Below, piece after piece: positions 1,142 to 48,428 of a stretch of 54,230 nt of DNA. This DNA comes from Natrialba taiwanensis DSM 12281 (GTDB taxonomy: Archaea > Halobacteriota > Halobacteria > Halobacteriales > Natrialbaceae), in contig NZ_AOIL01000020.1 in assembly GCF_000337595.1 (NCBI RefSeq), positions 1 through 54,230 of the forward strand. Direction: 5' to 3'. Position numbers and translations under genes: made by a program. The notes under the pieces were generated by a model. That model saw nothing but the letters and a program-made list of their open reading frames with translations. It searched no databases and was not told where the DNA came from. Each line of letters opens with the position of its first letter. Within the stretch, counting starts at the first letter, position 1.

Positions 1142-2350
1142 ATGGCATGGCTGCAAGAAGAAGTTGAAAACGCAATTGAGAATGTCATTGAGGATTTCAC
1201 TGATGCTCTTCTCGGCCTTATTAATAATATCTATGAGGCAATCTTAGGTCCTATTGTCGGCGTCCCGACTCCGAAGTCAGATTCTGGATACATGGTTGTT
1301 GGTGCCCCAGATAATGCGCCGTGGGAGAGTCTGTACCAGGATGTATACCTCTCGTACATTATGCCGCTGGCAATCATGATGTCGGTCATCGCTTTTGCAT
1401 TCGTTGGTCTCCGAGCGGGATCGATGAGCGAGTATCGACGAAAGCAACTCCTCCGACGGCTTGGTCTCGTATTCATGGGAACATTCGTCTGGTTCCCACT
1501 CGTATCTATTCCCTTGCAATTCATCGATGCAGTGGGGCTCACGATCGCTCCAACCGACGAGATGTCTGCGGGGCTCGGGGGGCTTATTCAATCCTCTCTC
1601 GGAGGCACGTTTGCTGTTCTTGCGATGGTTGTCATATCGAATTTCTTCTTGGTAGTTGCTGGGTTCATAGTTGCACTTCGCTGGATTTCGCTCTGTGTAT
1701 TAACACCGATAATGCCATTGCTGGGCGTTCTCTGGTCAATGGAAGTCTGGCCATTTAGCCCAGCAGCAAACATGGCCCGTCGAGCTGCTGGAATCTATCC
1801 TGGACTCGTACTTGCTGGCATTCCTCCAGCTATCCTTTTCCGAATTGGGTGGGAGGTCGGTGGTCTTGAAACCTCTGTCAAGGGGCTTTTTTCGCTATTC
1901 ATTGGATTAGCCTTGATCCCAGCAGCGATTATCGCGATGCTCATGACAGTCTACTGGAGCAGCCCAGCAATGCGGACCATCGCTCAGAAAGGTGTGTCTG
2001 CGACGAATCCTGGCGCAGCTGCATCAGGAGCGGCAAAGGCGAAACGCGCTTCTGGAAAGACCGTCCGTGGCGCCCGAAATGTCCACCGAGGATACGCAGA
2101 CAACAAGATTGGCGCAGTCACGAAGAGCGGACAAACCACGATCGGGAGTAGCGGTTCGAAGGCATACAAGGTCGGTGCATCCGCTCGCTCGACAAAGACC
2201 CATGCTGGCCGCTACAACAACCTTCGGAAGTCGAAGACGGGCCGAATGCGCGATAAGGCTACCGATGACGCTCGAAAAGCGACACAGAAGGTCTCGACTC
2301 GAACGAAACGTGGACTCAAAAATACGAAGCGAAAGGTCTCACGGTGGTGA
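1142..2350 (+). CDS. VirB6/TrbL-like polytopic conjugation membrane protein
   Basis: This 402-residue protein has an amphipathic N-terminus, five or six hydrophobic segments between about residues 70 and 285, and a long, very basic C-terminal tail (residues 285-402) rich in Lys, Arg, Ser and Thr. A multi-pass core with a basic cytoplasmic tail, directly upstream of a VirB4 ATPase, matches VirB6/TrbL-type inner-membrane channel proteins of type IV secretion systems and the analogous haloarchaeal transfer proteins. The start codon abuts the preceding TAA. The gene overlaps or nearly overlaps virB4, so the two are likely cotranslated. Assignment rests on topology and context, not on a diagnostic motif. 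Confidence 0.65.
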   Translation: MAWLQEEVENAIENVIEDFTDALLGLINNIYEAILGPIVGVPTPKSDSGYMVVGAPDNAPWESLYQDVYLSYIMPLAIMMSVIAFAFVGLRAGSMSEYRRKQLLRRLGLVFMGTFVWFPLVSIPLQFIDAVGLTIAPTDEMSAGLGGLIQSSLGGTFAVLAMVVISNFFLVVAGFIVALRWISLCVLTPIMPLLGVLWSMEVWPFSPAANMARRAAGIYPGLVLAGIPPAILFRIGWEVGGLETSVKGLFSLFIGLALIPAAIIAMLMTVYWSSPAMRTIAQKGVSATNPGAAASGAAKAKRASGKTVRGARNVHRGYADNKIGAVTKSGQTTIGSSGSKAYKVGASARSTKTHAGRYNNLRKSKTGRMRDKATDDARKATQKVSTRTKRGLKNTKRKVSRW

Positions 2351-2355
2351 TACTC

Positions 2356-5300
2356 GTGAGTACGAATACAGCTGACGGCGAGTATAACGCCCGAAAAATC
2401 CACCAATCACTCGGCGGCACAACAGCCTTCTTTCGAGGTTACACGATTGGCGAACTCATGCTATTTCTCGCGGTGGCCTTCGTCACCGTCGTTGCAGCAA
2501 CGTTCGTTCCAGCGGCACTGACAATCCCAGTATTAGGGTTTGGGACGATGGTCACAACAGTGCTGTTCTTGCTGCATAAGGTGAAACCGAGATATCTCTG
2601 GCTTACAGAGTGGCTTGCCGCTCGCTTTGGCTGGGCGATCAAGAACAAAGAATACACTCACGGCGATGCGGACAGCAGTGAAGTCCGGTATTTAACTCGC
2701 CTACAGCGAGTCTATCCCCACGCTCTGGAACGAACGGATGGTGCACTCGTCGGAGCGATGAAAGTCGAGCCAGCGAACATGGCTCTCGAAGACGACGATG
2801 CATGGGCGAAGGCTGTCCAGTCCTTCTCAGAGTTCGCCAACTCGACGGTCGACTTCCCGGTAAAGATCTACGTTACTAGTCGAGAGGTCGCCGAGGACGA
2901 TGTCGTCCGTGCACATCGTGATCGACTTGGTGATGCTGATGTCCGCTCTCGCCCAGTGTTGAAACGACTCCTCTCGGAGTACGTTTCTGCAAACACAACC
3001 GACAACGGGGACATCGACGCCGAAACAACCACGATCCGGGAGTATTATCTCATCACTGCTGTCACTGACGACGATATCGACCAGTTCGACGAAACCAGCG
3101 ACAGCGTCCTCGCGTATCTCGCCAATGTCCCTATTCTCGGACGGTTCTTCGGTCGCTTTCAGACCGATGATCTGACTGAATCCGAGCGTGAGCAACTCAA
3201 AGAGGAACAACTCGAATCTCGACTTGCACAGCTGCGTCGTGGCGGATCGTCACTCTACCGGTGTACGATCAGCCCTGTGGATGCATACGATCTCACTCGG
3301 ATCACGAAGGAGTACTGGACATGTCGATCGGAAGACTACGCTAACATCGCCGAGGCTCTGGGGACGTTCCCGGTCGTCTCCCACGGAATTAGCGACGGTG
3401 TGCCGGCGACACCCGATCCCGATGCTGTCCTTGAGGCAATGGCTGAACGGGACAGTACAGCCAACACGGATTCAGATTCCCATGAAGGGGCCGCTAACGA
3501 GGATACTGACACTCCATCTGCTCCTGCTGCTGATCGATTACCAGATACGTCGACGATGCATCAGTCGGTTATTGCGCCGTCAACAGTCGACTGGGAGACG
3601 ACTTACGCTGTGATCAACGACGAGACGTACGTTCGAACGTTCTGGATCGAACAGTTCCCCGAGGAGCCAGCGGATGGACTCCTCGAACGACTATTGCTCG
3701 AAACCGATCTCCAGACGGATATCAGCATCCACCTCGATCCGTTCGATAGCCAGTCAGCCCAGGATATGATGGCAGACTGGATTTCGGATTTGAAGATCAA
3801 TCAGCACGACTCGAACAGCCTCAAAGCCGAGGATCTGCAGGAGGATATCGACCAAGCGAAGTACATGCGGTCACTCGTTCGCGCGAACAAAGCGTCGTTC
3901 TACCGCGGTGGCGTGTTCATCCGACTCGCCGCTGAGAGCGAGCAGGCACTCGACAATCAGACAACCCGCTTGCGGTCGATCATCAAAGACGCGCCGGCAA
4001 ACTGTACCCTCAAGGTTGCGAGTCGGTGGCAGGAACATGGGCTTGCAACAGTGTCGCCGCTTGGAACGAACGAACTGGGACGTGATCGGATGTCGACGCT
4101 CACGAATCAGGCGATCGGCGCGATGTTCCCCTTCTCGTCGAACTACCTGATGATGGACGACGGTATCGAGTACGGCTATCACGGACACAACGGCTCGCCT
4201 GTCCGCATCAATCCGTGGGAACTCGACACCGGGCACAGTGAACTCGTCGTCGGAATGCCGGGTGCCGGGAAAACGTTCGGCGGGATCATGCGTCACCTTC
4301 GAATGATGAAGCGCCGTCACGACACGATGCTCGTTCTCGTCGATCCGGTTGGCGGCTTCCGCGGCATTGCAGATGCCCTGAACGCGAAGACGATCACCGT
4401 TGGTGGCGATACGAAACTGAATCCACTCGAGATCCGTGAAACGCCCCAGCACGTTCTTGACTCGGGTGAAGGGATCTCTCCCCTCTCGGCGAAGAAAGAC
4501 GAGGTCTACGCTGTCCTCGAGAACTTTCTCGATGCTCGTGATATCGACCTCGGGACTGAGACTGGCGTCCTCTCGTATGTCATTGATGAGGCTTACCGGC
4601 AAGCAGGTATCGTCGAAGACGATGTCTCGACGCACACGTCGGCAAACTCGCCGACGATGCAGGACGTCCATCGAATCCTCTGCGATATCGCCGAGAACCC
4701 AGACGAGCACAATATCGCAGCATCCGAATCCGCCCGCGAACGTGCCGCCCAGTACGCCGATGAACTCGCGATTGCGTTCCAGCCGTTTCGAGAGGGTGGA
4801 GCCTACGAAAACCTCTCCCATCACTCGGAGATCGATATCCTGGAAGGCGACAACAAGGTTGTCTACATCGACCTCGGCCAGATCGAGGGGAGCGCCTCGG
4901 GGATCGACCGCCAGACGTTCCTAATGCAACTGCTTCTGTCGACGATCTATCAGCAGGCAAAGAACACCCAACGGAACGTTGAACTCGCGATCGATGAAGC
5001 TCACTATCTCTTCGAAGATCAGGCAAACCTCGACTTCCTCGAGACGGCGTTCCGTCACCAGCGCCACGCCGGCCTTCGAATGGTACTCCTCTCGCAGACG
5101 GCCCAAGAGTTCTACGAGACCGAACAGGCGGAGAAGATTATCGGCATGTGTCCGATCAAGGTATTCCACAAGCTTCCTGACCTAGATGATCGGACAGCGG
5201 ATAAAATCGGGCTCACAGAAGAGCAACGCCGGTACGTCAGAGGGGCTGACGCCGGAAAGGAAGATCTCGGCTATAGTCAGTCACTCGTCCGCGTTGAAGA

Positions 5301-5661
5301 ACACGGCACGTACCCGCTGCATGTCGTCGCCGACGAGTTCGAGAAGCGGGTTATCGATTACGAACCTGAGGACCAGGCCTTCATTCAACAGGCGATGAAC
5401 GACGAGTCAGCGGAGCTGCTCGCTTTCGAAGAGTTCGTCGAGACCGAAGCACAGCGTAACTCGCTTGCGACCCGCCTTGACATCACCGCCGAGACGGCAA
5501 GCAAACTCCTTGAGGAGGACCTCACCAAGACGGAAGTCCTTGATGCAGTCGTCAAACAGGCTCTCGAGACGGATACAGACACCGAGGAGGCACCGATCCA
5601 GACCGATGGCGGAGAGTCAGCTCTCGATCAGCTCACCACTGAGGCGGAGTATGACAACTAA
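2356..5661 (+). CDS. virB4: VirB4/TraC-like conjugation ATPase with membrane N-terminus
   Basis: About 1101 residues. It powers assembly and substrate transfer of the mating apparatus at the membrane. Residues 20-85 hold two hydrophobic helices, resembling a VirB3/PrgI-type subunit fused to VirB4. Walker A (GMPGAGKT) lies near residue 633 and Walker B (LAIDEAH) near 876-882, followed by the usual RHAGLRMVLLSQ region with a conserved Gln. A Ser/Thr/Asp-rich linker sits near residues 370-405. The frame opens at GTG 2344, but GTG 2356 (MSTNTADGEYN) gives a more typical N-terminus and avoids overlapping the virB6-like stop at 2350; I chose it. The end overlaps the next gene by 11 bases. Confidence 0.9.
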   Translation: MSTNTADGEYNARKIHQSLGGTTAFFRGYTIGELMLFLAVAFVTVVAATFVPAALTIPVLGFGTMVTTVLFLLHKVKPRYLWLTEWLAARFGWAIKNKEYTHGDADSSEVRYLTRLQRVYPHALERTDGALVGAMKVEPANMALEDDDAWAKAVQSFSEFANSTVDFPVKIYVTSREVAEDDVVRAHRDRLGDADVRSRPVLKRLLSEYVSANTTDNGDIDAETTTIREYYLITAVTDDDIDQFDETSDSVLAYLANVPILGRFFGRFQTDDLTESEREQLKEEQLESRLAQLRRGGSSLYRCTISPVDAYDLTRITKEYWTCRSEDYANIAEALGTFPVVSHGISDGVPATPDPDAVLEAMAERDSTANTDSDSHEGAANEDTDTPSAPAADRLPDTSTMHQSVIAPSTVDWETTYAVINDETYVRTFWIEQFPEEPADGLLERLLLETDLQTDISIHLDPFDSQSAQDMMADWISDLKINQHDSNSLKAEDLQEDIDQAKYMRSLVRANKASFYRGGVFIRLAAESEQALDNQTTRLRSIIKDAPANCTLKVASRWQEHGLATVSPLGTNELGRDRMSTLTNQAIGAMFPFSSNYLMMDDGIEYGYHGHNGSPVRINPWELDTGHSELVVGMPGAGKTFGGIMRHLRMMKRRHDTMLVLVDPVGGFRGIADALNAKTITVGGDTKLNPLEIRETPQHVLDSGEGISPLSAKKDEVYAVLENFLDARDIDLGTETGVLSYVIDEAYRQAGIVEDDVSTHTSANSPTMQDVHRILCDIAENPDEHNIAASESARERAAQYADELAIAFQPFREGGAYENLSHHSEIDILEGDNKVVYIDLGQIEGSASGIDRQTFLMQLLLSTIYQQAKNTQRNVELAIDEAHYLFEDQANLDFLETAFRHQRHAGLRMVLLSQTAQEFYETEQAEKIIGMCPIKVFHKLPDLDDRTADKIGLTEEQRRYVRGADAGKEDLGYSQSLVRVEEHGTYPLHVVADEFEKRVIDYEPEDQAFIQQAMNDESAELLAFEEFVETEAQRNSLATRLDITAETASKLLEEDLTKTEVLDAVVKQALETDTDTEEAPIQTDGGESALDQLTTEAEYDN

Positions 5662-6853
5662 GACCATGACTACGCTCAATCGTTTCACGAAGATACTCGA
5701 TTCGTCGCCCCAGTACGAGGCAACGCAACTCGAATTCGGAGAGGAGGAATCGTTCGTCCAGCAGCAGGCAGACACGCCGGGACTACTCTTGCGAATCCGC
5801 CCTTACAAAGAGAACGACGGCGTCGTGGATGGGGCCGGCGTTCTCCAGTCAGTCCACGACGTGACGACGAGTTTCCGTGGGAAGAACACGAGTGACCACC
5901 ATTCGTTCGAAGTCTGGTTCGATGAGGGCAAGATCTCGTTCTATATGCATGCTGCTACTGAGGCAGCCGCAGACAAGTTCCGCCGACGTGTCGGCAACAA
6001 CTACGCTAACAGTGAGATCTTCCCTGTCGAGGAAGGCTATGCGTTCCCCGTTATCGGCTCTGACGAGTACGTCGCCGGTGCATGGCTCGAAATGGAGAAA
6101 ATTCCCTACTACCCCATCCGCCATCACAATAGCGAAGGCTTCGAGACGGATCCCTACGGCGAGATCACGAGCGAAATGCTGTCGCTCGACGAGAGTACGG
6201 TCGTCACGCAGGTCGTCTTCCGTCCGGCGAAGCAGTCCTGGACTGACGGTGATCGGTTCAAGCACAACAGCGTCGACGAACTCGCGCACGCACTTCGGCA
6301 AGGAACTTCTGTCGGGTGGCTCAATCCCCGGACACGACCGGCAAGTGAGAAGGACAAGCAGGCCGCGAAAACGATCGAACAGCAACGCGGGCAACAGGCG
6401 TTCCACGTGAATATTCGCGTATTGGCGGCCTCGAGTGAACAGGCCGAAGCTGAGGCTCGAGCCCGCGGTGTCGCGGGAATGTTTAGGAAGTACTACAACG
6501 CGATTACGGAACAGGGACTCGACGATAATCCGGTCTGGCATCGCAAAGAGCGGAAACGGGCTGAACGACTTCGACGATTCCTCCATCGTATGCGCGATCG
6601 CGAGTGGATCGATCGCCGTATGATCATGACCGTTGACGAACTCGCCGGCGTCGCACACATCCCCAACGCAGAGATTGAGACGCCGAAGATTGACTGGCGA
6701 TACACGCAGCGTGGCGATCGACTCCCATCGGATGGATCTCGATACGACGCGGATGAGTTGCCGGCTGGTGGGCAGACATCCGGTGTTCCTGATGAGGCAG
6801 CAGTCTCCATTGATGGCTCTACTCGTGATCAGGAGGGATTTGATGGTATTTGA
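5651..6853 (+). CDS. Conjugation-associated conserved protein between VirB4 and VirD4
   Basis: About 400 residues, soluble, with no membrane helix. The open frame extends upstream to 5465 but that part is Arg/Ser-rich shadow of virB4. ATG 5651 has a GGCGGAG ribosome-binding stretch inside the virB4 end and gives MTTKTMTTLNRFTK; ATG 5666 is the alternative. The protein is acidic, mixed alpha/beta, with a central block around residues 50-150 (FEVWFDEGKISFYM, AADKFRRRVGNNY) that looks like a conserved fold, and a proline- and aspartate-rich tail. It overlaps both neighbours, an arrangement that suggests a fixed VirB4-X-VirD4 module. I recall similar proteins beside haloarchaeal HerA/VirD4-like ATPases, but the molecular role is unknown. 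Confidence 0.7.
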   Translation: MTTKTMTTLNRFTKILDSSPQYEATQLEFGEEESFVQQQADTPGLLLRIRPYKENDGVVDGAGVLQSVHDVTTSFRGKNTSDHHSFEVWFDEGKISFYMHAATEAAADKFRRRVGNNYANSEIFPVEEGYAFPVIGSDEYVAGAWLEMEKIPYYPIRHHNSEGFETDPYGEITSEMLSLDESTVVTQVVFRPAKQSWTDGDRFKHNSVDELAHALRQGTSVGWLNPRTRPASEKDKQAAKTIEQQRGQQAFHVNIRVLAASSEQAEAEARARGVAGMFRKYYNAITEQGLDDNPVWHRKERKRAERLRRFLHRMRDREWIDRRMIMTVDELAGVAHIPNAEIETPKIDWRYTQRGDRLPSDGSRYDADELPAGGQTSGVPDEAAVSIDGSTRDQEGFDGI

Positions 6854-9800
6854 TCGGTTCTTCAGACACAGTGGGGAGGATTCGAGTAGCGATCAGAACA
6901 GTGAGCACACGTCAGCAGACGAGGTATCCGATGATGAGGTTATGTCCTCAACTGGTGACGACCAGACTGATGTCACGAATAGCACTCGGTTGTCGTCTGA
7001 CCAGCAATCAGCCGCTGGTGAACAATACCAGATCGTCGACCAAAACACGATCCGTATCGGTGGCAAGCCGATCCTCGCGGAAACGGCCGACGAAGGAACG
7101 GTTGCAGGTCCATTCGTTCGCGAAATGTTCGAAGCCGGGATGTACAACGCACCTTCCCCACTCTGGGTCGGCTACACGGAGGATCCCCAGACTGGGTTTC
7201 GTGAGGCACCGCTCCGATTTGACTCACTCTTTCGGCACAACTGGATCGCTGGGACGACCGGCTATGGAAAAACGACCGAACTCCTGAATATGATGGTGCA
7301 GTGGGCGTATTCGGGATACGGCTTCACCTACTTCGATCCAAAAGGTCGTGATTCTCGGGAACTCCTTCGGATGCTCCCCGAACATCGCCTTGAGGACGTG
7401 GTCTGGATCGAGCCCGGGTCGACCACCCACGAGAACACCGTTGGGATGAATTTCCTCGAAGTACCCAAATGCGAGACGACTGAGGAACTCGAGAACGAGA
7501 TCGAAAACCGGGTCGAGAACCTGAAAGCAGTCTTCGATACGTCCGACTACTGGGGCATTAATATGGAGGCGATCACCGAGTCGATGGCTCGAGCAATGAT
7601 GAAATCCGAGCAGCCGTTTTCGGTCATCGATATGTACTTCATTCTATTGAATGCCGACCGTCGCGAAGACTTCGCACTCGATGTCGAGGACCCCTATATC
7701 CGAGAGTTCTGTCTCGAGATTGCGAACATGGAAGAAGAGACGGTTCGTCCGCTCCTGAAACGGATCAAGTCTTGGGTCGAGAACTCGGTGATTCGCCGGA
7801 TTATCGCTCACCGGGAGAGTACGATCAACTTCCGCGATATCATTGAGAACGATCGGATTGTGATCGTTCGAACGCCCATCGAGAATACGGACATCAAGAA
7901 GATGGTCACACTGGGTGTGATGCGGAATCTCTGGAGTGCTATTCAGCGCCGTTCATACGAACTGGATACTGATCCAGACCCCTACTTCGTTCTCTGTGAC
8001 GAGTTCGACGACATCGCCAGCGACAATCTCGATATCGAGTCGATGCTAGCCCGTGCTCGGTCGATGCGGTTGTCGGTGACTCTTGCCTCACAGTATCCCT
8101 CGCAGTTCGACGAAGATACGCTAAAAGCGATGCAGAATAACTGTGACAATCTCCTCACATTTTCAGTCAACGACAGCGACGATGCCGAATTGTTGATGAA
8201 ACGCTTCCGTGATTACACGGCCGAAGACCTCATCACTACCGACCAGTTCAAAGTTTGGACACGGATCCCCCTCTCGGGTGGACGTTACTCTGAGCCCGTT
8301 TTGATTCGGACGTTTCCGCCGTACCCGCCCCTTCGAGGGACGGATGCTGTCGATCAGATCATCGAACAGAGTCTCGAGCGGTATGGGACTGATCCGCTGA
8401 CGGACGCTGAAATCCTGAACGATCTCATTTATAGCGATTCGAACGAGGCAGCCAACCCCACGAAGATTCTCGAGGAGACGATGGCGAAAGCCGTTCGTGC
8501 AGTCCAAATCCGGGAAAGTGTACGGGCGGAAAACGGCTGGGTCGATGTCACTGCCGTCGACGAGGAACTCGCGGCCCGTCTTGAGAATACTGAGCCTGAA
8601 ATCGACGTTGTACCCGAAGACTTGCCTGACGTTCGTGAGGAATCTCGGTTGCTCGAGGTTACGTTGCAAAGCGATGAGATCGTGGTTCGGCTCACTGAGG
8701 ATGGAGAAACACTGGTCGAACCCGAGACAGGTACTGTTCGATCAGCCGGTGGCTCGAGTCACGATGCACTCCTCCTCGAAACGGAAACAGCACTCACCGA
8801 ACGTGGGTTCAGTGTCGAAATCCTCGAGCAGGATGGAAGCGAGCGGCCCGACGCAATCGCAACGCACCCCGATCATGACGTCGTGTTCAACATCGAAGCT
8901 GAGACGACGACGCCGGACCGACCGGTCAAGGTCTTGCAGAATCTCAAGCGAGCCTACGAAGCGGATCGGATTCCGATATTCGTTGTCCGTCCTGGTGACT
9001 CCAAGACAGAGTGGGCGACTCGAGTTGAGAATATTCTCTCGCCACCGCTGCAGGAACGAGCCGATGGTACTGAACAGTTCTACAACTGCGACGAGGTCGT
9101 AACCTTCAGTGGTGGTGCAACGGCTCATGGTGGCGTCACTGCGGTTCGACCTAGTACGTCTGAGACGAATCGAACTGTTTGGACACGAGAGAACGGTGAA
9201 CTTGTCCTTTCGGACGGTGAGACAACGTTCGCCCGCGTTCCAGAGGAGGGCTCACTCTCGAAAGACAGTGTGCCAGCCTACTATAGCCATGATCGAGAAA
9301 CCGGCCAGTATACTGTTTACGAGGCTGGAGAAAACCAGGTCTACGACTCGAGAGACGACTTTGAGGAGGAGTGGACGCCGGTCAAACGGCCGTTTCGTCC
9401 CACTGTCGACCTGCCAGATCCGGATTATTCGCGTGATAGCTATCTAATCCTGATCCATCCCACGGATGGAGGCCCTGTATTCTTCCAACAAGGCGAGACA
9501 CACGAGTTGCCTGTATCATTGGACACTGGAGAGTTATGGCTGGATACTTCTTCGGATAAACTTCCCCAAGCATCGGGGTCGTTCCCATCAGTAGGAGCGG
9601 ATTCGTCGGTAGAGGAGTCAGTAGAGATTGACCCAGATAGTGATGGTATCGAAGCGTTTGCAGCGATGTACATCAGGGAGGGTGGGGGAGCACAGATACC
9701 GAAGGCAACGCTGTTTCAGGCATACTCGAGTTGGACCGACAAGCACGATATTGATGGGACAAACGCGAGCTGGTTCGGTCGGAAGCTTTCGAACGTCGTC

Positions 9801-9896
9801 GACTATGAGGATAATCGGGCCAGAGACGGCGACGATCTGGTGACTGTCTACACCGGTATCGATCTGACCAGTGATGGATCAGAGTTCCTTGAGTGA
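6843..9896 (+). CDS. virD4: VirD4/TraG-like type IV coupling ATPase with C-terminal nuclease-like extension
   Basis: About 1017 residues. The likely start is ATG 6843 (MVFDRFFRHSGED), overlapping the upstream stop; the longer frame from 6633 is a shadow. After an acidic Ser/Asp-rich linker, Walker A (GTTGYGKTT) lies near residue 137, a glycine/aspartate FDPKGRDSRE motif follows, and Walker B (VLCDEFDDI) is near 380, then SVTLASQYPSQ. This is the HerA/TraG/VirD4 coupling ATPase pattern that delivers DNA to the mating channel. There is no clear N-terminal membrane helix. The last 400 residues are additional: around 660-720 a block with RPDAI and FNIEAETTT resembles a PD-(D/E)xK nuclease core in which the Lys is replaced, and the final 120 residues form a separate domain. 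Confidence 0.85.
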   Translation: MVFDRFFRHSGEDSSSDQNSEHTSADEVSDDEVMSSTGDDQTDVTNSTRLSSDQQSAAGEQYQIVDQNTIRIGGKPILAETADEGTVAGPFVREMFEAGMYNAPSPLWVGYTEDPQTGFREAPLRFDSLFRHNWIAGTTGYGKTTELLNMMVQWAYSGYGFTYFDPKGRDSRELLRMLPEHRLEDVVWIEPGSTTHENTVGMNFLEVPKCETTEELENEIENRVENLKAVFDTSDYWGINMEAITESMARAMMKSEQPFSVIDMYFILLNADRREDFALDVEDPYIREFCLEIANMEEETVRPLLKRIKSWVENSVIRRIIAHRESTINFRDIIENDRIVIVRTPIENTDIKKMVTLGVMRNLWSAIQRRSYELDTDPDPYFVLCDEFDDIASDNLDIESMLARARSMRLSVTLASQYPSQFDEDTLKAMQNNCDNLLTFSVNDSDDAELLMKRFRDYTAEDLITTDQFKVWTRIPLSGGRYSEPVLIRTFPPYPPLRGTDAVDQIIEQSLERYGTDPLTDAEILNDLIYSDSNEAANPTKILEETMAKAVRAVQIRESVRAENGWVDVTAVDEELAARLENTEPEIDVVPEDLPDVREESRLLEVTLQSDEIVVRLTEDGETLVEPETGTVRSAGGSSHDALLLETETALTERGFSVEILEQDGSERPDAIATHPDHDVVFNIEAETTTPDRPVKVLQNLKRAYEADRIPIFVVRPGDSKTEWATRVENILSPPLQERADGTEQFYNCDEVVTFSGGATAHGGVTAVRPSTSETNRTVWTRENGELVLSDGETTFARVPEEGSLSKDSVPAYYSHDRETGQYTVYEAGENQVYDSRDDFEEEWTPVKRPFRPTVDLPDPDYSRDSYLILIHPTDGGPVFFQQGETHELPVSLDTGELWLDTSSDKLPQASGSFPSVGADSSVEESVEIDPDSDGIEAFAAMYIREGGGAQIPKATLFQAYSSWTDKHDIDGTNASWFGRKLSNVVDYEDNRARDGDDLVTVYTGIDLTSDGSEFLE

Positions 9897-18770: not shown

Positions 18771-18894
18771 CCACTGCACGCATCAGAGGACAGCGGGAGA
18801 AAACGAGAGGGCTTGATCACCAAAGACTCGAAGACAAGCCATCTTCTCATCTGTCAGCGGTAGATATAAGTCGCTACCGATCAACAATTAGAAC

Positions 18895-19080
18895 GGAAGC
18901 CATTAAACGGGCATTGAAATGCCCCGGGTGTTGGAGCACCCGAGACGTGGCTTCCAAACCCACCAGGGGTTTGCAAGCATGTTTGCGTACATTCTCACGG
19001 GATATAAACATCCCGTACGACTGATGCATAGAACGCTCCGACCAGCACTCGGTCTCTCCTGCGGTATTGGAGGCTCTATG
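18895..19080 (+). ncRNA. Candidate structured RNA (multi-helix junction), unnamed
   Basis: Almost every base of 18895-19016 pairs in consecutive perfect helices. P1 GGAAGCCA (18895-18902) pairs with TGGCTTCC (18948-18955) and encloses two abutting hairpins: P2 GGGCAT-TGAA-ATGCCC (18908/9-18924) and P3 CGGGTG-TTGGAG-CACCCG (18925-18942). P4 AAACCC-ACCAG-GGGTTT (18956-18972) abuts P1. P5 GCAAG-CATG-TTTGC (18973-18986) abuts P4. P6 ACGGGAT-ATAAAC-ATCCCGT (18997-19016) follows. A weaker P7 pairs CATAGA (19027) with TCTATG (19080) around CTCC/GGAG and GACC/GGTC. No ORF of note crosses it. It ends 15 bases before a small zinc-protein operon, so it may be a structured 5' leader, a free RNA or a single-stranded DNA structure. 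Confidence 0.5.
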
Positions 19081-19094
19081 GGGTGTCTTTCGGC

Positions 19095-19190
19095 ATGACC
19101 GCCGGCACCGATTGTTCGGACTGTGGTGACATTCGAGACGATCACCTGTGCACAGATGCTCAAGATGCCGCTCCGGAGGCTGTATACTGA
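19095..19190 (+). CDS. 31-residue CxxC microprotein
   Basis: ATG 19095 encodes a 31-residue acidic peptide with CSDC near the start and a further Cys (HLCTDAQ), possibly a half zinc finger. Its TGA overlaps the next ATG (TGATG), the same coupling seen in the 17834-18770 operon. It is first in a three-gene run behind the structured region at 18895-19080. Confidence 0.55.
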   Translation: MTAGTDCSDCGDIRDDHLCTDAQDAAPEAVY

Positions 19191-19390
19191 TGCTCGAGCA
19201 GATCGATCCTCGGGGCAAGCACTTCACGATCGATGGTGAGAACATCGTTGACGAAGCAGCAACCGATCGTTGTCGTCAAACCAAGTTACTCGAACATCTG
19301 AGCAAGCGAGAGTTCTGCGAACTCGAGCATGCGACGACAGTCACTGGACCAGTCGATGTGCATCTCGCCATCGAGGTGTTCGAGCGATGA
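19190..19390 (+). CDS. Hypothetical 66-residue protein
   Basis: 66 residues from ATG 19190 (MLEQIDPRGKHFTIDGENIV). Mixed alpha/beta with two Cys and several His; no recognised family. It is coupled to the microprotein before it by TGATG and to the next gene by ATGA. The conserved spacing of these overlaps argues that it is a real gene rather than a chance frame. Confidence 0.6.
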   Translation: MLEQIDPRGKHFTIDGENIVDEAATDRCRQTKLLEHLSKREFCELEHATTVTGPVDVHLAIEVFER

Positions 19391-19692
19391 CCGCAGACGA
19401 TCTTGACCCAGACACTGTGTCCGGATCCGACCAAGCCCTCGGTGTTGATGACCCGACTCCCGACTTGGTGTACGATGATCAAGAATACCAGTCGGAAGGC
19501 GACGCCGTCGATGGCGAAAAGGTGACCACTGATGGTCTTCACAAAGCACTTCGCAAAGCTGAACGCGACCTGAGAGAGATCGATGAACAACTCCCCGACC
19601 CACTGACGCTCAACGACTCGCTCACTGAACTTCGCGCCACCGCAGCTGTGTATGCTCGGCTCGGCCCTGAACACCGCAATCGTGGGGACTAA
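19387..19692 (+). CDS. Hypothetical acidic 101-residue protein
   Basis: 101 residues from ATG 19387. The first 45 residues are very acidic and probably disordered (DDLDPDTVSGSDQALGVDD); the rest forms two helices (LHKALRKAERDLREIDEQL and LTELRATAAVYARLGPEH) that could be a coiled-coil hairpin. It is the last of three overlapping genes starting at 19095. Small acidic proteins with a charged helical hairpin occur widely in haloarchaeal accessory DNA; I know of no function. Confidence 0.6.
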   Translation: MTADDLDPDTVSGSDQALGVDDPTPDLVYDDQEYQSEGDAVDGEKVTTDGLHKALRKAERDLREIDEQLPDPLTLNDSLTELRATAAVYARLGPEHRNRGD

Positions 19693-25751: not shown

Positions 25752-28700
25752 TTATTCCCAACTATGAAAGTCGGTCTCTACGGTCCCAGTGAATTCTCCT
25801 TTGTCATCCAAATAGTACACTGCTCTAATCTGTGACTTACCCATCTGGTTCCCGCCCATACCGGTCGAGATCACGCGTTTTTCTCCCTGGACAGGCCAAA
25901 CGATATCCAAACCCTCCGCCTCCAATTCATCCAGGATATTATCGCTCGCACCAATCATCGACATCGAATTAATTCTATCATGAACTCCCCGTGCTTCAGA
26001 AATATCAGCTACACAAACAGGGTCGGGACCCGATTGAGTGAACTGCATGGTTCCTACCCTCCATTCGAGATCAAGTAAATCGGCGAGATAGGGCGATGGG
26101 GCATACATTCCGTACTTTTCATTTATCGAGCAGTCGTATTCAGCCTCCCAGAAAAGATCGATTGCCGTATGCTCGATATCAACCGAACTTCCGATTATTA
26201 TTGAGCTGTCACCTTCCCATCGATCCTCAACTATAGGATGCCACGGATACTCGCCTCTGAAAACCTGCGTCAGAGTTGGAAGAGAACCCAGCGTACTTCT
26301 TATCTCCTCACTCTTCACCCACCCCTCTGTAATCCAATCAACCAACTCTTGTTTATCCTCTTGATCGACAACCACCGGGTCAATTCGACAGAATACGTCC
26401 CGCTCAATTTCCGAATCACCCCCCTCCTCTGCCTTCCACTTGTACATTCCGTACAACGGGACCCATCCTTCCCCATCGACAGAAACATCCAGCATCGAAT
26501 CCACCGAAGGGAACTCATCGTGATTTTGAATCCACTCCTCAATCGGCTCGTCCTCAATACGGCAATCATACTCAATTACATCATCAAGAGATAGCTCAGC
26601 GTCAAGTTCCGGGCTCAATACTGAAGGATCGATATTCCGATCCCATTGAACCCAAGGCCCGTTGTATGGCTCTTCTCTGGATGAATCCGCGATTCCACAG
26701 TTGTCGACAACCCAGGCGATCAACTCGTGATAAGCGATCCACTGATATTTTTTACTGAATTTCTCCGGCTTCCTCGTTCCTCTACCATGATTCGACCAGC
26801 GATTCAGATAATGTTCAAACTCGCCAAAGAGATCTGGATCCCAACCAAGTTCGAATACACGCTTTGTAATCCAACGCAACGCCTCCTCACCCGAGATGTC
26901 ATACCCATGAACGTGGGAACTGTCGTGGTTAGTGTCCAGAACATATCGGGCAAAGTCGCTGCGTCCATCTCCCTCGAACCCTGAACCAGCTAAGCCATAC
27001 CAGAACTTGGCCTCGACCTCATAATCAGCCTCTTCCAACCGCTCCGTGACCAAATCCTCTAACTCCTCAGAATCCGGTATATCGATACTGAATGCACTAT
27101 TGTATGGCGGCCTAACCCTGTCAATATCGACGTCAAAATCCCTGTCCAGATTAACAACTGCCTCAATAATTCCACGCGCATAATCCCGAGACAATACATT
27201 AGGTACTGGATTCTCATTTTCAAACTCTGATTCATAAACAAACTCTGCAACTTCAGCCGCCGATTCTTGCTGCCTGTTCCTGAGAACCCCGCCGTAAGCT
27301 GCTGCATAAACCCGCTCCAAAATATACGGATCATTCACCCCTTGGAATCGCTCAATCAGATCAATGTACACCCGCAGGTCAGACCCTACCACATTAACCA
27401 GTGACTTGGTTGCTCGATCCCGAACATACCGATTCGGACAAGAGAAAAACCAGGATAGAGAGATCGACATCAGCCTCTTCAATTCCTCTGATTCGACTGG
27501 CTCATGCTCCAAAGAGAACCCCCAATTGATCAGCCGAAAGACTTCGGAGGTCTCCTCATCAAACTCTCCATGAAGAAACTTCGACCAGTTGTTATCGCGT
27601 CCAGCAATTGGCTGATCCCACAGCACTTCATGAAGGTACTCCGCATTCAGCGGATGATCAGTGCTTGTCGCCAAAGTAAGAAGAACTCGCCATAGCTCAT
27701 TTACTTCATCAAGAAGTTCGATCTCACTCCACAAATAATCGTGAACCTCCTTTTTTAATTCGCCCTCTGGAGTAGTTAGCGAATCTGGATCCCGCCAACC
27801 CAAGCTCTTGATCACAGGCCTGAGAATTTCACTCGACTCAACCAAGTCAAAAAGCTCCACATCATGCTGCTCAGGCAGATGAATCGCAAACGCCTGAATC
27901 AGGCCAGCGTACAAATTTGGTTTGTCGAATAACTCCTGCAATTCATCATTCTCAGAGAATCCCCGTTCAAGATTTTCATCTACGTATAAATCGAGATACT
28001 GCTGAGCAAGCTTGTGGTCAGCAAATTTGTCATACGAAAACCTCACAGATTCTCCGTTATCCTCGTTGAATGAAGCTACTTCAGAAATCACTCCTTCACT
28101 CAACATATGTCGATAGAGACTCTCAGAATAAGATCGCCGGGGTAGCAGATTATCAACAATCTCTTTGGCATCTTGCTTCGGCAACCGCTTTGTTCCATCA
28201 CCACGTTCAGCCATCTCCTGAGCCAAGTCATTTACCGCCTGCTGAACCTTATTCACACCAGGATCGTAGTCCAACTCTCGCCAAAGTCGTTCATGCACAC
28301 CGTCAATATATCCTTCAAAAATCTCAGTCAACCCCTCCGAACCGTGTGAAACCCGACTTTTCCCTTTCCTTTCCAGATTCTCACAGAACAACTTCAGAAA
28401 CAACGGTACCTGAAACTCGCGCTTAAGAACGGGAATCGAAGAGTGTTCAATACCATGCGCATCAAAGAAGGTGCGAACCGCTTCGTACTCGACTTTACTA
28501 AATCCGCCATGCCAGGCTTCTACCAACTGGCCTTCGTCTATGGCGTCCGGCAAGACTAGGTCCTCATAACCAGACCGACAACTCACACAAATGCCAACAT
28601 ACGGATACCCCTCTAATTTCCTTAATACGCCAGGAAGACGCTTGGGCCAAATTCTCGGGGTCAGGCTCTCATTAAGTGCGTCAATCAAAATCAGAGAACG

Positions 28701-29795
28701 AACACCGCGAGATTCACCAAGTGAATTGAGAGCGCTCAAGAAATCGTCTGTCGTACAATTCAACCCGAACCGGTCAATAATCTGCGTCCAAATGTCCTGA
28801 TCCGCGAAATTCTCACCGAGAAGAAAAACCGTAGGATAGCCTTCCTCAACACGAGATCGGGCCACGTTACAAAGCGTATGAGTCTTCCCAATACCAGCGT
28901 CTCCAAGCAGTTTCAACCCAGAAGCCTCAGCTACCCGTAGCTCCCGGCTTTCCACGAAATTTTGGAGGTTATATATCTCAGTTCGTACCTGCCGGAAGTG
29001 ATATAGAATATGATTTCCAGGATCTTCCATCGACGCTTCTTCGTCTTTCTGCCTAAGACCGGGCTCTAAATCTTGGATACTCTCCTCAGCCTGGTCAAGA
29101 GCCTGTTGAAGGTCATTAAATGGAATCCTCGCAGACACCTCGTCTATACTCCCAAGGACTTCCGGAATCTTGTCTACGGCCTCACGCAAATTCTGGAAAG
29201 CATCTTTATCAACATCCTTCAGAATTGAATTGTACCGCTCAGTAAACAAGCTGGATGCCTCCTCATCAAGGTCATCCAACCGGCTTTGAACACTTGCATC
29301 AAATTCATCCGTCCGTCCCAACGGTTCGAAAATGTCGGAATTACCCGTATCAACGTGCAACTCAGGATTATACCGGTCTTTAGCGTTCGAAATAGTGACC
29401 TCTACTTCCGTCTCAAATTTAGAATCCGTTAACTGGAGCTCAGTCAGAAGCTGATCAGAGAGCTCCGTCGGAGAGGTAGACATCGCCTCCTGCTCTTTCT
29501 TCCACCGTTCAAGCTCCTCAATAGGATAGTCTTCCGGGTTCTTGTCGATATGGGTATGATGAGTTGGACATAGAAGAATGAGATTAGAATATTCATCAAT
29601 CTCCTCATCGCTTAGACTAGGGTCATATCGCGGCCCTCCCTCACTTTGAGCACGGATATGGCAGATCTCACCGACTACCGTCTCCGTTTCAATATCCACG
29701 ACCTCATTCTCACAGTCAGGATACCCACATTGATTCCCTGACGCTGCCCAGAGCTTCTTTAATGTAGACTGCTTGTAACTCACTCTGCCGTGCAT
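25752..29795 (-). CDS. HNH-STAND NTPase, Avs-like putative antiviral sensor
   Basis: 1347 residues. Residues 20-95 are an HNH nuclease domain (CGYPDC, GEICHIRAQSEGGPRYDP, YSNLILLCPTHHTHID). A helical linker follows. A STAND/NACHT-type NTPase has Walker A GDAGIGKTHT near 296 and Walker B SLILIDALNES near 368, then CVSCRSGYEDL. The C-terminal 700 residues are helical and repeat-like, ending in a beta-rich domain (GTMQFTQSGPDPVCVADISE). Nuclease-STAND-sensor is the architecture of Avs/AVAST-type defence proteins, which recognise a phage protein, oligomerise and degrade DNA; the trigger here is unknown. The minus-strand TATA-like TTTTTATTAG is only about 16 bases upstream of ATG 29795, which fits a leaderless start at GTG 29783 better. 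Codon use is visibly A/T-richer than in the flanks. Confidence 0.8.
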   Translation of the reverse strand: MHGRVSYKQSTLKKLWAASGNQCGYPDCENEVVDIETETVVGEICHIRAQSEGGPRYDPSLSDEEIDEYSNLILLCPTHHTHIDKNPEDYPIEELERWKKEQEAMSTSPTELSDQLLTELQLTDSKFETEVEVTISNAKDRYNPELHVDTGNSDIFEPLGRTDEFDASVQSRLDDLDEEASSLFTERYNSILKDVDKDAFQNLREAVDKIPEVLGSIDEVSARIPFNDLQQALDQAEESIQDLEPGLRQKDEEASMEDPGNHILYHFRQVRTEIYNLQNFVESRELRVAEASGLKLLGDAGIGKTHTLCNVARSRVEEGYPTVFLLGENFADQDIWTQIIDRFGLNCTTDDFLSALNSLGESRGVRSLILIDALNESLTPRIWPKRLPGVLRKLEGYPYVGICVSCRSGYEDLVLPDAIDEGQLVEAWHGGFSKVEYEAVRTFFDAHGIEHSSIPVLKREFQVPLFLKLFCENLERKGKSRVSHGSEGLTEIFEGYIDGVHERLWRELDYDPGVNKVQQAVNDLAQEMAERGDGTKRLPKQDAKEIVDNLLPRRSYSESLYRHMLSEGVISEVASFNEDNGESVRFSYDKFADHKLAQQYLDLYVDENLERGFSENDELQELFDKPNLYAGLIQAFAIHLPEQHDVELFDLVESSEILRPVIKSLGWRDPDSLTTPEGELKKEVHDYLWSEIELLDEVNELWRVLLTLATSTDHPLNAEYLHEVLWDQPIAGRDNNWSKFLHGEFDEETSEVFRLINWGFSLEHEPVESEELKRLMSISLSWFFSCPNRYVRDRATKSLVNVVGSDLRVYIDLIERFQGVNDPYILERVYAAAYGGVLRNRQQESAAEVAEFVYESEFENENPVPNVLSRDYARGIIEAVVNLDRDFDVDIDRVRPPYNSAFSIDIPDSEELEDLVTERLEEADYEVEAKFWYGLAGSGFEGDGRSDFARYVLDTNHDSSHVHGYDISGEEALRWITKRVFELGWDPDLFGEFEHYLNRWSNHGRGTRKPEKFSKKYQWIAYHELIAWVVDNCGIADSSREEPYNGPWVQWDRNIDPSVLSPELDAELSLDDVIEYDCRIEDEPIEEWIQNHDEFPSVDSMLDVSVDGEGWVPLYGMYKWKAEEGGDSEIERDVFCRIDPVVVDQEDKQELVDWITEGWVKSEEIRSTLGSLPTLTQVFRGEYPWHPIVEDRWEGDSSIIIGSSVDIEHTAIDLFWEAEYDCSINEKYGMYAPSPYLADLLDLEWRVGTMQFTQSGPDPVCVADISEARGVHDRINSMSMIGASDNILDELEAEGLDIVWPVQGEKRVISTGMGGNQMGKSQIRAVYYLDDKGEFTGTVETDFHSWE

Positions 29796-35582: not shown

Positions 35583-35612
35583 GTTTATTGCCCCCCAGAA
35601 GGGGTGCGGGGG
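35583..35612 (+). promoter_or_regulatory. Hairpin promoter element, copy 7
   Basis: GTTTATTGCCCCCCAGAAGG followed by GGTGCGGGGG. CCCCC (35591-35595) pairs with GGGGG (35608-35612). It is 21 bases upstream of the first TnpB-like gene. Confidence 0.65.
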
Positions 35613-35633
35613 AGAGAACCCCGAGGCCAACAG

Positions 35634-37442
35634 ATGACCCACCTCACTGAACAATTCCATATTCCCAGAGAGTATCACGCCGCCTGTTCCCGAATCCTAG
35701 AGATCGGGCAACGTCATCTCCGTCGATTGCTTGAGGAAGAATACTGGCGAGACAGGCACCTCGAAGCGATTCAGTCCCGCGATAGCAACGACCACACCTA
35801 CGTTCGAGACGACGAGTACGAGCCGTTCGAGGACACGGACGCATACCTCTACAACCGATTCAAGCGATGTATCTACCATCGTGTTACTCGGATTCTAAAA
35901 GCTCATCGTGAGAAGTACCGTGCCTTCCGGTTCATCGTCGACACTGTCGAGGAACGAAAAATCAGGCGGATTGGATGGCAGCAGCTTCGAAGCCGCCTAT
36001 TCGATAGTGGAGACTCACCGTACATCCAGTGGAGCAATATCGAAACCGTCGTCGAGCAGCTAAACAATCATTACGACCGGCATGGTCGATTTCCTGAAGC
36101 ATACACGGACCTCGTCGACTGTCCCCAGCCCGACGCCACGGTTCCCTTTGGCCCGGACAGCCGTGGAGACATCCACGAGGTCCAAGCCGCGGACGGAGAC
36201 GTCGTGGTGATGCTGAAGGCGCCGGATTCGCTATCGCCCAACTCGTATGCCGACTGGACAGAGCACGAAATACGGTTCCCAGCCCACCAACGGTTCAACG
36301 AGATGCTTGAGGCAGGGGAGCTGAAAGCGCCGACACTGCATTCCTCCGAACACGGCTATACGCTGGACGTGCCAGTGGATATTCCCGAGACCCCCGTTGA
36401 CACCACTTCCGACCGTGTTCTCGCTGTGGATCTCGGCGTGAAAAAGCAGGCGACTGCGGTTGTGCTGGAAGGGTCTGAAGACGGGAAGGAGGAATCCCAG
36501 ATCGCGCCACCCAACTTCGTCGACCACCACGCGAAGGACAAACTGTTTCGAGTGAAAGCCGACGCCGAGGGCATAGACAGCCGCCTTGCCGAACTCCGCC
36601 AACAGGGCAAGAGCCATACCGAGCAGTTCGCTCACCTCCTCAACGAATATCGCCGGACGCGACGGAAGGAGCGGCGTCTCCGCGACCAGATTCAGCACGA
36701 TGTAGCAAATCAGCTGGTGTGGCTCGCGGCCGTTCACGAGTGCGAGACGCTCGTCCTCGAGTCGCTAGGGCAGTTTGAGGCCGAAGGCACGGATGGCGTG
36801 ACCGCATGGAGCATCTCGACGTGGGCCCATGGGAAGCTGCTGGAACGGATTAGGTACAAAAGTGACCTCCTTGGGATCGATGTCGAGGCGGTGAATCCTT
36901 GGGGGACATCACGATACTGTCCGCGGTGTGGCGAACGTGGCAAGACCGTGAAGGCCCCAACCGACCACACTGAGCTGCGCAACGGCGGCCACTTCTACTG
37001 TCCCAGCTGTGGGTATGAGTGCGACCGTGATGTTGTCGGTGCGATCAACGTCGGACGGAAACACCTCGCTGAAAGTCGGATGGAAACAGCGAATCCCTGT
37101 GTCTACACGGCGCAGGGAAATCACGCCAGCTTTCCATCACGCCCCACCTGCGAGCGTGTCCGTTCTGAGGCCGGCACGGAGGATCCAGAACCCGTGTCGG
37201 TGCCTGGCGTTCAGTCCGCGGCCAACAGTGAACAGGATTCGGCGAGTGGCCGTCAGACCCGATTGTCCGAGTACCGTTCTTCGTCCCTCAGTACGACACG
37301 AAGCCGGGCAGAGGGAGGACTGCAACAAAATCAGAGCAGGAAGACGGGACTGCGGTGTCCCAGCGGGAGCATTACGAAGGAGTGCTTGCTCGCCAGCACG
37401 ACAGATTCCCACGAGGTGCTTCCAAATCCTGCCGAAAATTAG
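35634..37442 (+). CDS. tnpB: TnpB-like RNA-guided nuclease, long form, without TnpA
   Basis: 602 residues from ATG 35634. The first 250 residues are a helical recognition part. The RuvC fold has motif I VLAVDLGVKKQAT (Asp near 264), motif II ETLVLESLGQFE (Glu near 375) and motif III ECDRDVVGAINVGRKH (Asp near 463), so the catalytic D-E-D appears complete. A zinc ribbon (CPRCGERG near 428 and CPSCGYEC near 456) interrupts the fold, as in TnpB and Cas12. TnpB cuts DNA guided by an RNA from the element's right end. It has about 120 additional residues after the RuvC core, hydrophilic and Ser-rich. No TnpA lies nearby, and it is driven by hairpin element 7 like unrelated genes, so it may be a domesticated nuclease. 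Confidence 0.8.
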   Translation: MTHLTEQFHIPREYHAACSRILEIGQRHLRRLLEEEYWRDRHLEAIQSRDSNDHTYVRDDEYEPFEDTDAYLYNRFKRCIYHRVTRILKAHREKYRAFRFIVDTVEERKIRRIGWQQLRSRLFDSGDSPYIQWSNIETVVEQLNNHYDRHGRFPEAYTDLVDCPQPDATVPFGPDSRGDIHEVQAADGDVVVMLKAPDSLSPNSYADWTEHEIRFPAHQRFNEMLEAGELKAPTLHSSEHGYTLDVPVDIPETPVDTTSDRVLAVDLGVKKQATAVVLEGSEDGKEESQIAPPNFVDHHAKDKLFRVKADAEGIDSRLAELRQQGKSHTEQFAHLLNEYRRTRRKERRLRDQIQHDVANQLVWLAAVHECETLVLESLGQFEAEGTDGVTAWSISTWAHGKLLERIRYKSDLLGIDVEAVNPWGTSRYCPRCGERGKTVKAPTDHTELRNGGHFYCPSCGYECDRDVVGAINVGRKHLAESRMETANPCVYTAQGNHASFPSRPTCERVRSEAGTEDPEPVSVPGVQSAANSEQDSASGRQTRLSEYRSSSLSTTRSRAEGGLQQNQSRKTGLRCPSGSITKECLLASTTDSHEVLPNPAEN

Positions 37443-46982: not shown

Positions 46983-47133
46983 CGATCTCAAAGCCGTCGA
47001 GGACGACCGTGAGGGACTTCAGAGTCTGTTGGTCGAACAAGCACAGGCAGGCGTTCCAGAGCAAGTCCTCGTCGGGCTTCTCCGAGAACAGGCCGCCGAG
47101 ATCGAACGGTTCGGCTACATTCCGCGCCGATGA
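46972..47133 (+). CDS. 53-residue conserved small protein coupled to TnpB
   Basis: 53 residues from ATG 46972 ([20 protein letters not shown] in part), helical, with the ending [19 protein letters not shown]. It overlaps the truncated gene before it by 11 bases, and its stop overlaps the TnpB start (ATGA), so the two are translated together. It may modulate TnpB expression or be an unrelated cargo gene; no family is recognised. Confidence 0.6.
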
Positions 47134-48428
47134 GAGCGACCCGACCAGCAGGAAATAAGCAAGCGATGAAACGGATCAATACTTTCGAGGTGCGTCCCCG
47201 CTCGGAGTCGGATGAGGCCCTCCTACAAGACGTCATGGACGCGACGGCGAGCTTCTGGAACGAGCTGAACTATGCCCGCCGCCAGCGGTTCTTCGATGAC
47301 GAGAACATCTGGGAGACCAATGAGTTTCGCGGACAGTACAAAGGCCAACTCGGCGCTGCCGGCGTCCAGACGGTGACACGAAAGAACAACGCCGCCTGGA
47401 AGTCGTTTTTCGCGCTATTGGAAAGCGGTGAAGACGCGTCCCCACCGGGCTACTGGGGGAATCAAGAGGACGGGCGAGATCTCCGGCTGTTCGTTCGGAA
47501 CGATTCGTACGAGATCGAGTGGGGCGACTACTCCCGGGTCGAAATTCCGGTCGGCCAGGATCTCAAAGAGAAGTATGGACTGGGGTACTACGAACGGCTC
47601 CGACTGGAGGTGCGTGGCGATCCGAAGTGGTCCGGCGAACAGGGGCGACTGGAAATTCAATACGACGAGGTTGAAGGCACCTATCGAGCATATCAACCAG
47701 TCTCAGTCGACGACTCGGAACTGGATTCACCACTGGCTTCGGAAGAAGCCGCCCTCGATTTAGGTGCCAACAATCTCGTTGCCTGTACGACCACGACAGG
47801 GGAACGGTACCTCTACGACGGTGAGGAGCTGTTCGAGCAGTTCCGTTCGACAACCGAAGAGATCGCGCGCCTGTCGTCCAAGCTGCCGCCAGAGCGGGAC
47901 ACGAGCCAACGAATCCGCCGGCTCTACCGCAAACGCTCCCGCCGGCGGACCCATGCCCAGAAGGCCCTCATCCGTGACCTTGTTGAACGATTACACGACG
48001 AGGGGATCGCAACGGTGTACATTGGCGACCTCACCGGCGTCATCGAAATCCAACCATCCCCTGAAATCAACGAGAAGCTGGAGAACTTTTGGGCGTTCAA
48101 GCAGTTCGTCGATCAGCTGCGGTCCGTCTGTGAGGAGTATGGAATCGAGGTAGCGGAGAAGACCGAGGCATGGACGAGTCAGACGTGTCCGGAATGCGGG
48201 GAGCAAGCCGAGACAGTTCGACATCGAGAGACCCTGACCTGCCCCTGCGGGTTCGAGGGACACGCCGATCTCACAGCCGCAGAGACGTTCCTGCGGCGGA
48301 TCACCGAGCAGCAAGTCAGGCCGATGGCGCGGCCCGTGCGGTTCCAGTGGGACAACCACGAGTGGCGTTCGACCACAGACGCCCCCGAGATCGGGACAAA
48401 TCCCAACGAACAGCGCACAAACCCGTAA
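47130..48428 (+). CDS. tnpB: TnpB-like RNA-guided nuclease (IS1341/IS605 type, haloarchaeal)
   Basis: 432 residues from ATG 47130 (alternative ATG 47166, [20 protein letters not shown]). RuvC motif I is [15 protein letters not shown] (Asp near 210). Motif II reads [11 protein letters not shown], with Asp where other TnpBs have Glu (near 299), as is usual in the haloarchaeal group. [20 protein letters not shown] and [18 protein letters not shown] give the zinc ribbon and motif III (Asp near 378). It would cut DNA under guidance of an RNA made from its own 3' end. No TnpA is present, so it can only have moved with help in trans. Coupled to the 53-residue gene upstream. Confidence 0.85.

Follow-up and report, generated by a model that had tools for sequence, protein, structure and literature searches.

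A reading made from the sequence alone had singled out positions 18895–19080 of a contig of Natrialba taiwanensis DSM 12281, analysed here as a stretch of 54,230 nucleotides (the window), as a compact multi-helix structure ahead of a run of tiny genes. It was put forward as a candidate new RNA class and could have been a leader RNA, a free RNA or a folded single-stranded DNA (ssDNA) site. Which of these is it, and what would it do for the genes behind it?

Predicted fold and conserved extent

Folding of 18895–19080 reproduced the arrangement described in that reading, namely a helix P1 closing a junction of two abutting hairpins, followed by P4, a short P5 and P6. P1 pairs 18895–18903 with 18947–18955 and encloses the hairpins P2 (18909–18924; 18909–18914 with 18919–18924) and P3 (18925–18942; 18925–18931 with 18936–18942). 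P4 occupies 18956–18972 (18956–18961 with 18967–18972) and P6 18998–19015, all on the forward strand. The helices stood, with some corrections of detail. The stems had been given as 5–8 pairs, a range that misses P1 (9 bp) and P5 (4 bp, and not a family feature); of the two loops, UGAA was recovered, and the one noted as UUGGAG is UGGA in the predicted fold. The stretch does hold more structure than expected by chance: its RNA energy was −74 kcal/mol against −55.3 ± 4.6 kcal/mol for shuffled sequences (z = −4.0), with 1 of 200 shuffles folding as well, and folded as DNA it reached z = −5.1. Homologous copies (n = 52) had a mean folding z of −4.2, with values below −2 in 51 of them. The reverse strand also folded well, which is expected of stems, so the strand had to be decided comparatively.

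The conserved RNA, as delimited by the match to the covariance model R1 and by covariation, extends from 18895 to about 19017 only. A weaker long helix that had been traced to 19080 showed no conservation and falls in the coding part of a short open reading frame (ORF). When R1 was run on the window and three loci, the element scored 139.6 bits (E = 1e-27), the window sequence being among those from which the model was built.

Distribution among haloarchaea

A DNA search with 18880–19080 found 18 dispersed copies in the Natrialba genome itself; of 392 genomes of the order, 65 had matches, and almost all of these belong to the same family. The covariance model, built from 19 copies, likewise gave 18 copies in the own genome and matched 78 of 125 Natrialbaceae genomes. 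Copy number varied widely, from 26–30 in each of six genomes inspected more closely to one or none in some others. Outside the Natrialbaceae the model matches were scattered and weaker; at least one of them (L281) again lay before a zinc gene. Natrinema, Halomontanus and relatives (L030, L054, L058 and others) carried a longer form of the RNA, with an insertion of about 15–25 nt between P1 and P2 that holds a conserved CUCC and a G-run and is perhaps an extra junction helix.

At the gathering threshold no Rfam family matched anywhere in the window, and a permissive Rfam search gave only a CRISPR-repeat match (E = 1.5). A tRNA/tmRNA search returned none. In the 17 plasmid records that were matched, no annotated feature lay under the element (the gene table is incomplete), and searches of an open-access library, from which most subscription papers are absent, turned up no description of this RNA family. 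The phage records searched gave no match to the element. Three viral contigs shared an exact 17-mer with it and gave no covariance model match; the same 17-mer occurred in unrelated bacteria about as often as chance predicts. A role as a virus hallmark was ruled out, since the viral contigs bearing the 17-mer fail the model and the phage records give nothing.

Covariation and the selected strand

In an alignment of 19 copies made from sequence only, 95% of the cells could pair, and two-sided changes were present in 32 cells versus 11.7 in shuffles. An alignment of 99 copies, which was fitted to the model and is thereby biased toward structure, and in which 2 of the 99 rows are antisense matches, showed two-sided changes at 18 of 33 pairs; none of 500 shuffles attained the observed values. 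P1, P2, P3, P4 and P6 were all kept by compensatory changes. In P2 these included A-U to G-C and C-G to U-A, and in P3 a change from A-U to G-C was seen in about half of the copies while 100% of the cells remained paired. P4 had two-sided changes at several pairs, with 74–79% of the cells paired. Homologues with compensatory changes, which had been named as the check for this structure, were thus found, and the opposite pattern of conserved sequence with unconserved pairing was looked for among the homologues and not found.

G-U pairs were far more frequent than A-C cells, both in P1 (31 versus 3 in 52 copies) and in P6 (25 versus 5). Since a plus-strand G-U pair becomes an A-C mismatch when read from the opposite strand, the plus-strand RNA is the selected form. 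The proposal of a new RNA class is borne out by the lack of an Rfam match, the hundreds of homologues with compensatory changes and this plus-strand bias; by these comparisons, the element is a previously uncatalogued class of structured RNA in haloarchaea, probably cis-acting.

Promoter and upstream ORF

A TATA box (TATAAG) is located at 18865–18870 on the same strand, its first base exactly 30 nt before P1. About 119 of 147 copies had the box at −30 from P1, with a spacer almost free of insertions and deletions. Given the usual archaeal distance between TATA box and transcription start, this fixed position predicts a 5' end of the RNA at P1 or no more than a few bases away.

The sequence-only reading had overlooked an upstream ORF (uORF) of 39 codons (MFAYILTGYKHPVRLMHR..., 18979–19098, forward strand), which starts inside the structure and holds P6. 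Of the 139 copies in which it could be measured, 138 keep an AUG between P4 and P6. The frame reads through P6, which occupies codons 7–13 in the window, and typically ends after 33–50 codons. Within codons 8–14 conservation was highest at the third position, and GGA/CCC was exchanged for AGA/CTC at codons 8 and 12, a change that replaces Gly by Arg and Pro by Leu and keeps the stem. The conservation of third positions, together with covariation that alters the peptide, indicates that the hairpin is selected as RNA. On the same two grounds a conserved arrest peptide was discarded; the uORF is conserved in frame, start and stop position and not in its peptide.

Coupling to the downstream gene

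The structure had been placed 15 bases before the tiny genes. There are no free bases between them: the first tiny gene (19095–19190) is joined to the uORF by an ATGA overlap of stop and start. In the window the leader heads four frames on the forward strand, the uORF and three further ORFs, each overlapping the next. The first of the three encodes a 31-aa protein with a CxxC motif. Its counterpart in an N. aegyptia-like genome (L009) is devoid of the matching cysteine and has its frame fused to the uORF, so the 31-aa ORF may be degenerate. It is followed by a 66-aa ORF (19190–19390; TGATG overlap with the preceding stop), weakly matching PHROG 25896 (E = 7e-4), and by a 101-aa ORF (19387–19692; ATGA overlap), relatives of which are coupled directly to the uORF at three other loci (L010, L039 and L231).

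This coupling is a general property of the copies. Where a zinc gene follows, its AUG was at −1, −5, −8, −11 or −14 from the uORF stop in 78 of 85 cases, 47 of them with ATGA. In 104 of 133 copies the start of an ORF of at least 40 codons lay between −14 and +4 relative to the uORF stop, leaving the other 29 without a coupled ORF. ATGA-coupled ORFs of at least 40 codons were present in 68 of 133 copies versus 90 of 1361 control stops (6.6%), a tally of related copies and not of independent events. The uORF stop thus overlaps the next start more often than chance, as looked for in a leader that works by termination and reinitiation. Coupling at ATGA overlaps by termination–reinitiation has been established experimentally in Haloferax (PMC6728339).

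A free trans-acting small RNA of about 125–130 nt, ending after P6 and with the downstream gene transcribed by read-through only, would share the promoter spacing, the compact fold and the many near-identical copies, which do resemble a small RNA family, and P6 could mark its end. However, no T-run follows P6, and in most copies the reading frame continues across P6 as far as a stop overlapping the next gene, which a free RNA would not need. We therefore regard a free RNA as unlikely. Among the three forms originally envisaged, a leader RNA is favoured by the fixed TATA spacing and by the uORF that is coupled in most copies, and the other two are disfavoured.

Proteins encoded behind the probable leader

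What do the coupled genes encode? A profile of the zinc domain (CPxCG...GP....PCGCRV) found 14 loci in the own genome, and all 14 lay just downstream of an RNA copy. The usual downstream product is a zinc microprotein of the type CPxCG...PCGCR. The remaining copies of the own genome, and many in Halovivax and Halostagnicola, are followed by different small proteins, mostly behind the same ATGA: CYRCD...CCPDC proteins, CERC...CVDC proteins (starting at +4), HalOD1-like domains bearing a zinc motif, and a helical ORF of the type found in the window. Because the same leader and uORF precede several unrelated families of small proteins, the leader is a module in its own right. The PCGCR microproteins matched no Pfam or NCBIfam family above cutoff, and a search of the zinc protein against PDB and Pfam gave no convincing match, with only a weak Lar-like similarity.

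Zinc ribbons often bind nucleic acids, and the complete linkage at the 14 loci might point to an RNA–protein pair, whether a ribonucleoprotein, an autoregulation that relies solely on the product binding to the RNA, or a system like type III toxin–antitoxins. Against this, unrelated small proteins follow the same leader, and zinc homologues occur in other families with no recognisable leader. Nor does the element look like a type III toxin–antitoxin RNA: it is a single non-repetitive structure without tandem repeats, and the uORF lies between RNA and gene. Such a pairing is quite unlikely in our judgement.

Two further observations concern the surroundings of the zinc genes. In another haloarchaeal family (L276, L277 and L278), the gene for a 51-aa zinc microprotein relative (CPRCG...HPCGC) begins directly after an apparent tRNA 3' end; it has no such leader and may lie at the border of tRNA-integrated elements. 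In Natrialba (L038, L043, L045 and others), a conserved inverted repeat, GAGTTCAC...GTGAACTC, together with CAACTCGGCCCG, occurs about 0–250 bp past the zinc stop and is possibly a terminator or a 3' end structure.

Genomic context and mobility

With 18–30 dispersed copies per genome, some of them on plasmids, and with the inverted repeats past the Natrialba zinc genes, the copies could be imagined as a MITE-like mobile repeat that comprises promoter, RNA and zinc gene, spreads by transposition and uses the structure for that purpose. At 16 of 17 own-genome loci compared, however, at least part of the flanks was shared with N. aegyptia-like or N. asiatica-like counterparts, and at two loci examined there was neither a clean empty site nor a target duplication. 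In four more distant Natrialba the upstream genes of one locus are retained, with other sequence at the position of the element; this is not a clean empty site. Transposition would also leave the RNA-type G-U bias and the coupling unexplained, and we consider it very improbable as the basis of the family. The sequence comparisons fit a family that is for the most part inherited vertically and occasionally duplicated. A segment of about 157 bp (L044:1246–1402), repeated at many places in related genomes with 80–90% identity, is probably a separate small mobile repeat.

The window itself contains large ORFs at 1142–9896 that resemble, in sequence character only, VirB4-type and VirD4/TraG-type ATPases, which suggests that this part belongs to a conjugative plasmid-like or integrated element. 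Two ORFs (35604–37442 and 47130–48428) resemble TnpB-type nucleases of IS200/IS605 elements, and a 1347-aa ORF (25752–29795), HNH-like at its N-terminus and P-loop NTPase-like in its middle part (GDAGIGKTH), looks like a STAND-type defence protein. The VirB4-like and VirD4/TraG-like ORFs and the good folding of the DNA would fit a folded ssDNA site that serves the plasmid-like element, for instance as its origin of transfer or replication. Yet 17 further copies are on other contigs of the own genome, most of them before zinc genes, and promoter spacing, G-U bias and the codon covariation in P6 point to RNA. A folded ssDNA site is extremely improbable, and as the main role of the element a transfer origin was rejected on the copies elsewhere, the G-U bias and the P6 codon covariation.

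Proposed regulation of translation

The structure, promoter spacing, uORF frame and coupling are comparative evidence, and they lead us to consider it quite likely that the element is a cis-acting 5' leader of mRNA that sets the translation of the coupled uORF, and hence that of a set of small, mostly zinc-type proteins forming a regulon. Transcription would start at P1, and the RNA would fold into the P1-P2-P3 three-way junction and then P4, with the uORF start codon just past P4 and P6 within the first codons. Ribosomes translating the uORF would stop on a codon overlapping the start of the tiny gene and reinitiate there. With reinitiation at the overlap, how much the uORF start is used would set the output of tiny protein, and the leader structure would govern that use. 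Placed before up to 18–30 loci per genome, one module would create a regulon, and in the window it would drive a coupled operon on a plasmid-like element. The leader probably controls the whole set of tiny zinc-binding proteins, and the leader with its uORF relay is likely.

How might the structure act on the start codon? The 3' strand of P1 is GUGGCUUCC, and in many copies the start context of the uORF reads GAAGCCAUG. We infer that the structure regulates translation, and one possible switch is an exchange of strands in response to a signal. In one state the 3' strand of P1 would pair with the 5' strand, so that the junction is formed and the AUG is more exposed; in the other it would pair with GAAGCCAUG, extending P4 and burying the AUG. 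The signal might be a metabolite, an ion or the zinc protein itself, with no ligand or binding protein indicated.

Complementarity between the P1 3' strand and the start region exceeded that of shuffles (6.8 versus 4.6 contiguous pairs). Among 52 copies, 38 have 5 or more alternative pairs, and in these the median gap between the two constrained folds was 0.75 kcal/mol. The first fold left the AUG unpaired in 21 of 52 copies and the second in 4 of 52; one copy (L059) had matching changes in all three strands. The alternative pairing between P1 and the start showed no clear covariation beyond shuffles, a weak test since P1 hardly varies. About a quarter of the copies have only 3–4 contiguous alternative pairs. 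The window copy is among them: its alternative partner, 18974–18981, is weaker than in most copies (4 pairs), and the first fold is better by 4 kcal/mol. We hold strand exchange as plausible. A start-codon-masking synthetic riboswitch works in Haloferax (PMC8241225). More tentatively, and with the balance somewhat against it, the family could be a natural haloarchaeal sensing switch, that is, a bistable leader in which the P1 3' strand toggles between junction and uORF start on a cellular signal, relayed by termination–reinitiation to up to 20–30 small, mostly zinc-binding proteins, the module also being borrowed by a plasmid-like element.

Relation to known systems and significance

The proposed leader would act like known translational leaders; its sequence and structure class is new, and its copy number and gene association are unusual. 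One close parallel is the B12-riboswitch leader of ppe2 in Mycobacterium tuberculosis (PMC11260477), which is structured and controls a translated uORF, with the downstream gene expressed mainly via termination–reinitiation. That leader is bacterial, present at one locus, responsive to B12 and of a known riboswitch class, whereas the family described here is archaeal, multi-copy and differently structured, and no ligand is known for it. A paper from 2021 names the fluoride riboswitch of Thermococcus kodakarensis as the sole natural archaeal riboswitch to have been determined experimentally (PMC8241225). Like the leader proposed here, it is an archaeal structured 5' leader thought to control translation, but it belongs to another RNA family; the window element has no Rfam match. 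The overlapping ATGA/TGATG gene pairs of Haloferax volcanii have the same stop/start overlap and presumed reinitiation. Those are pairs of ordinary genes (PMC6728339), in contrast to the present case, in which the first frame is a short leader ORF that has an unconserved peptide and carries an RNA hairpin. To our knowledge, no uORF relay is known for the T. kodakarensis fluoride riboswitch.

The downstream products resemble the C(P)XCG zinc finger micro-proteins of H. volcanii in being very small and having two CxxC-type motifs (PMC11241148, PMC6562870). They differ in that no description of such a leader RNA was found for the H. volcanii proteins, and in that the PCGCR proteins cannot be assigned above cutoff to any family of Pfam or NCBIfam. 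Leaderless mRNAs are the majority in haloarchaea, making up 72% of the protein-coding transcripts of H. volcanii (PMC4983044). Annotation misses the element in all 17 of the matched plasmid records. If the proposed reading is true, a conserved leader present in 18–30 copies in some genomes and linked through a uORF relay to zinc microprotein families would amount to a large post-transcriptional regulon in haloarchaea, and the leader would give a handle on the role of these abundant, poorly understood proteins.
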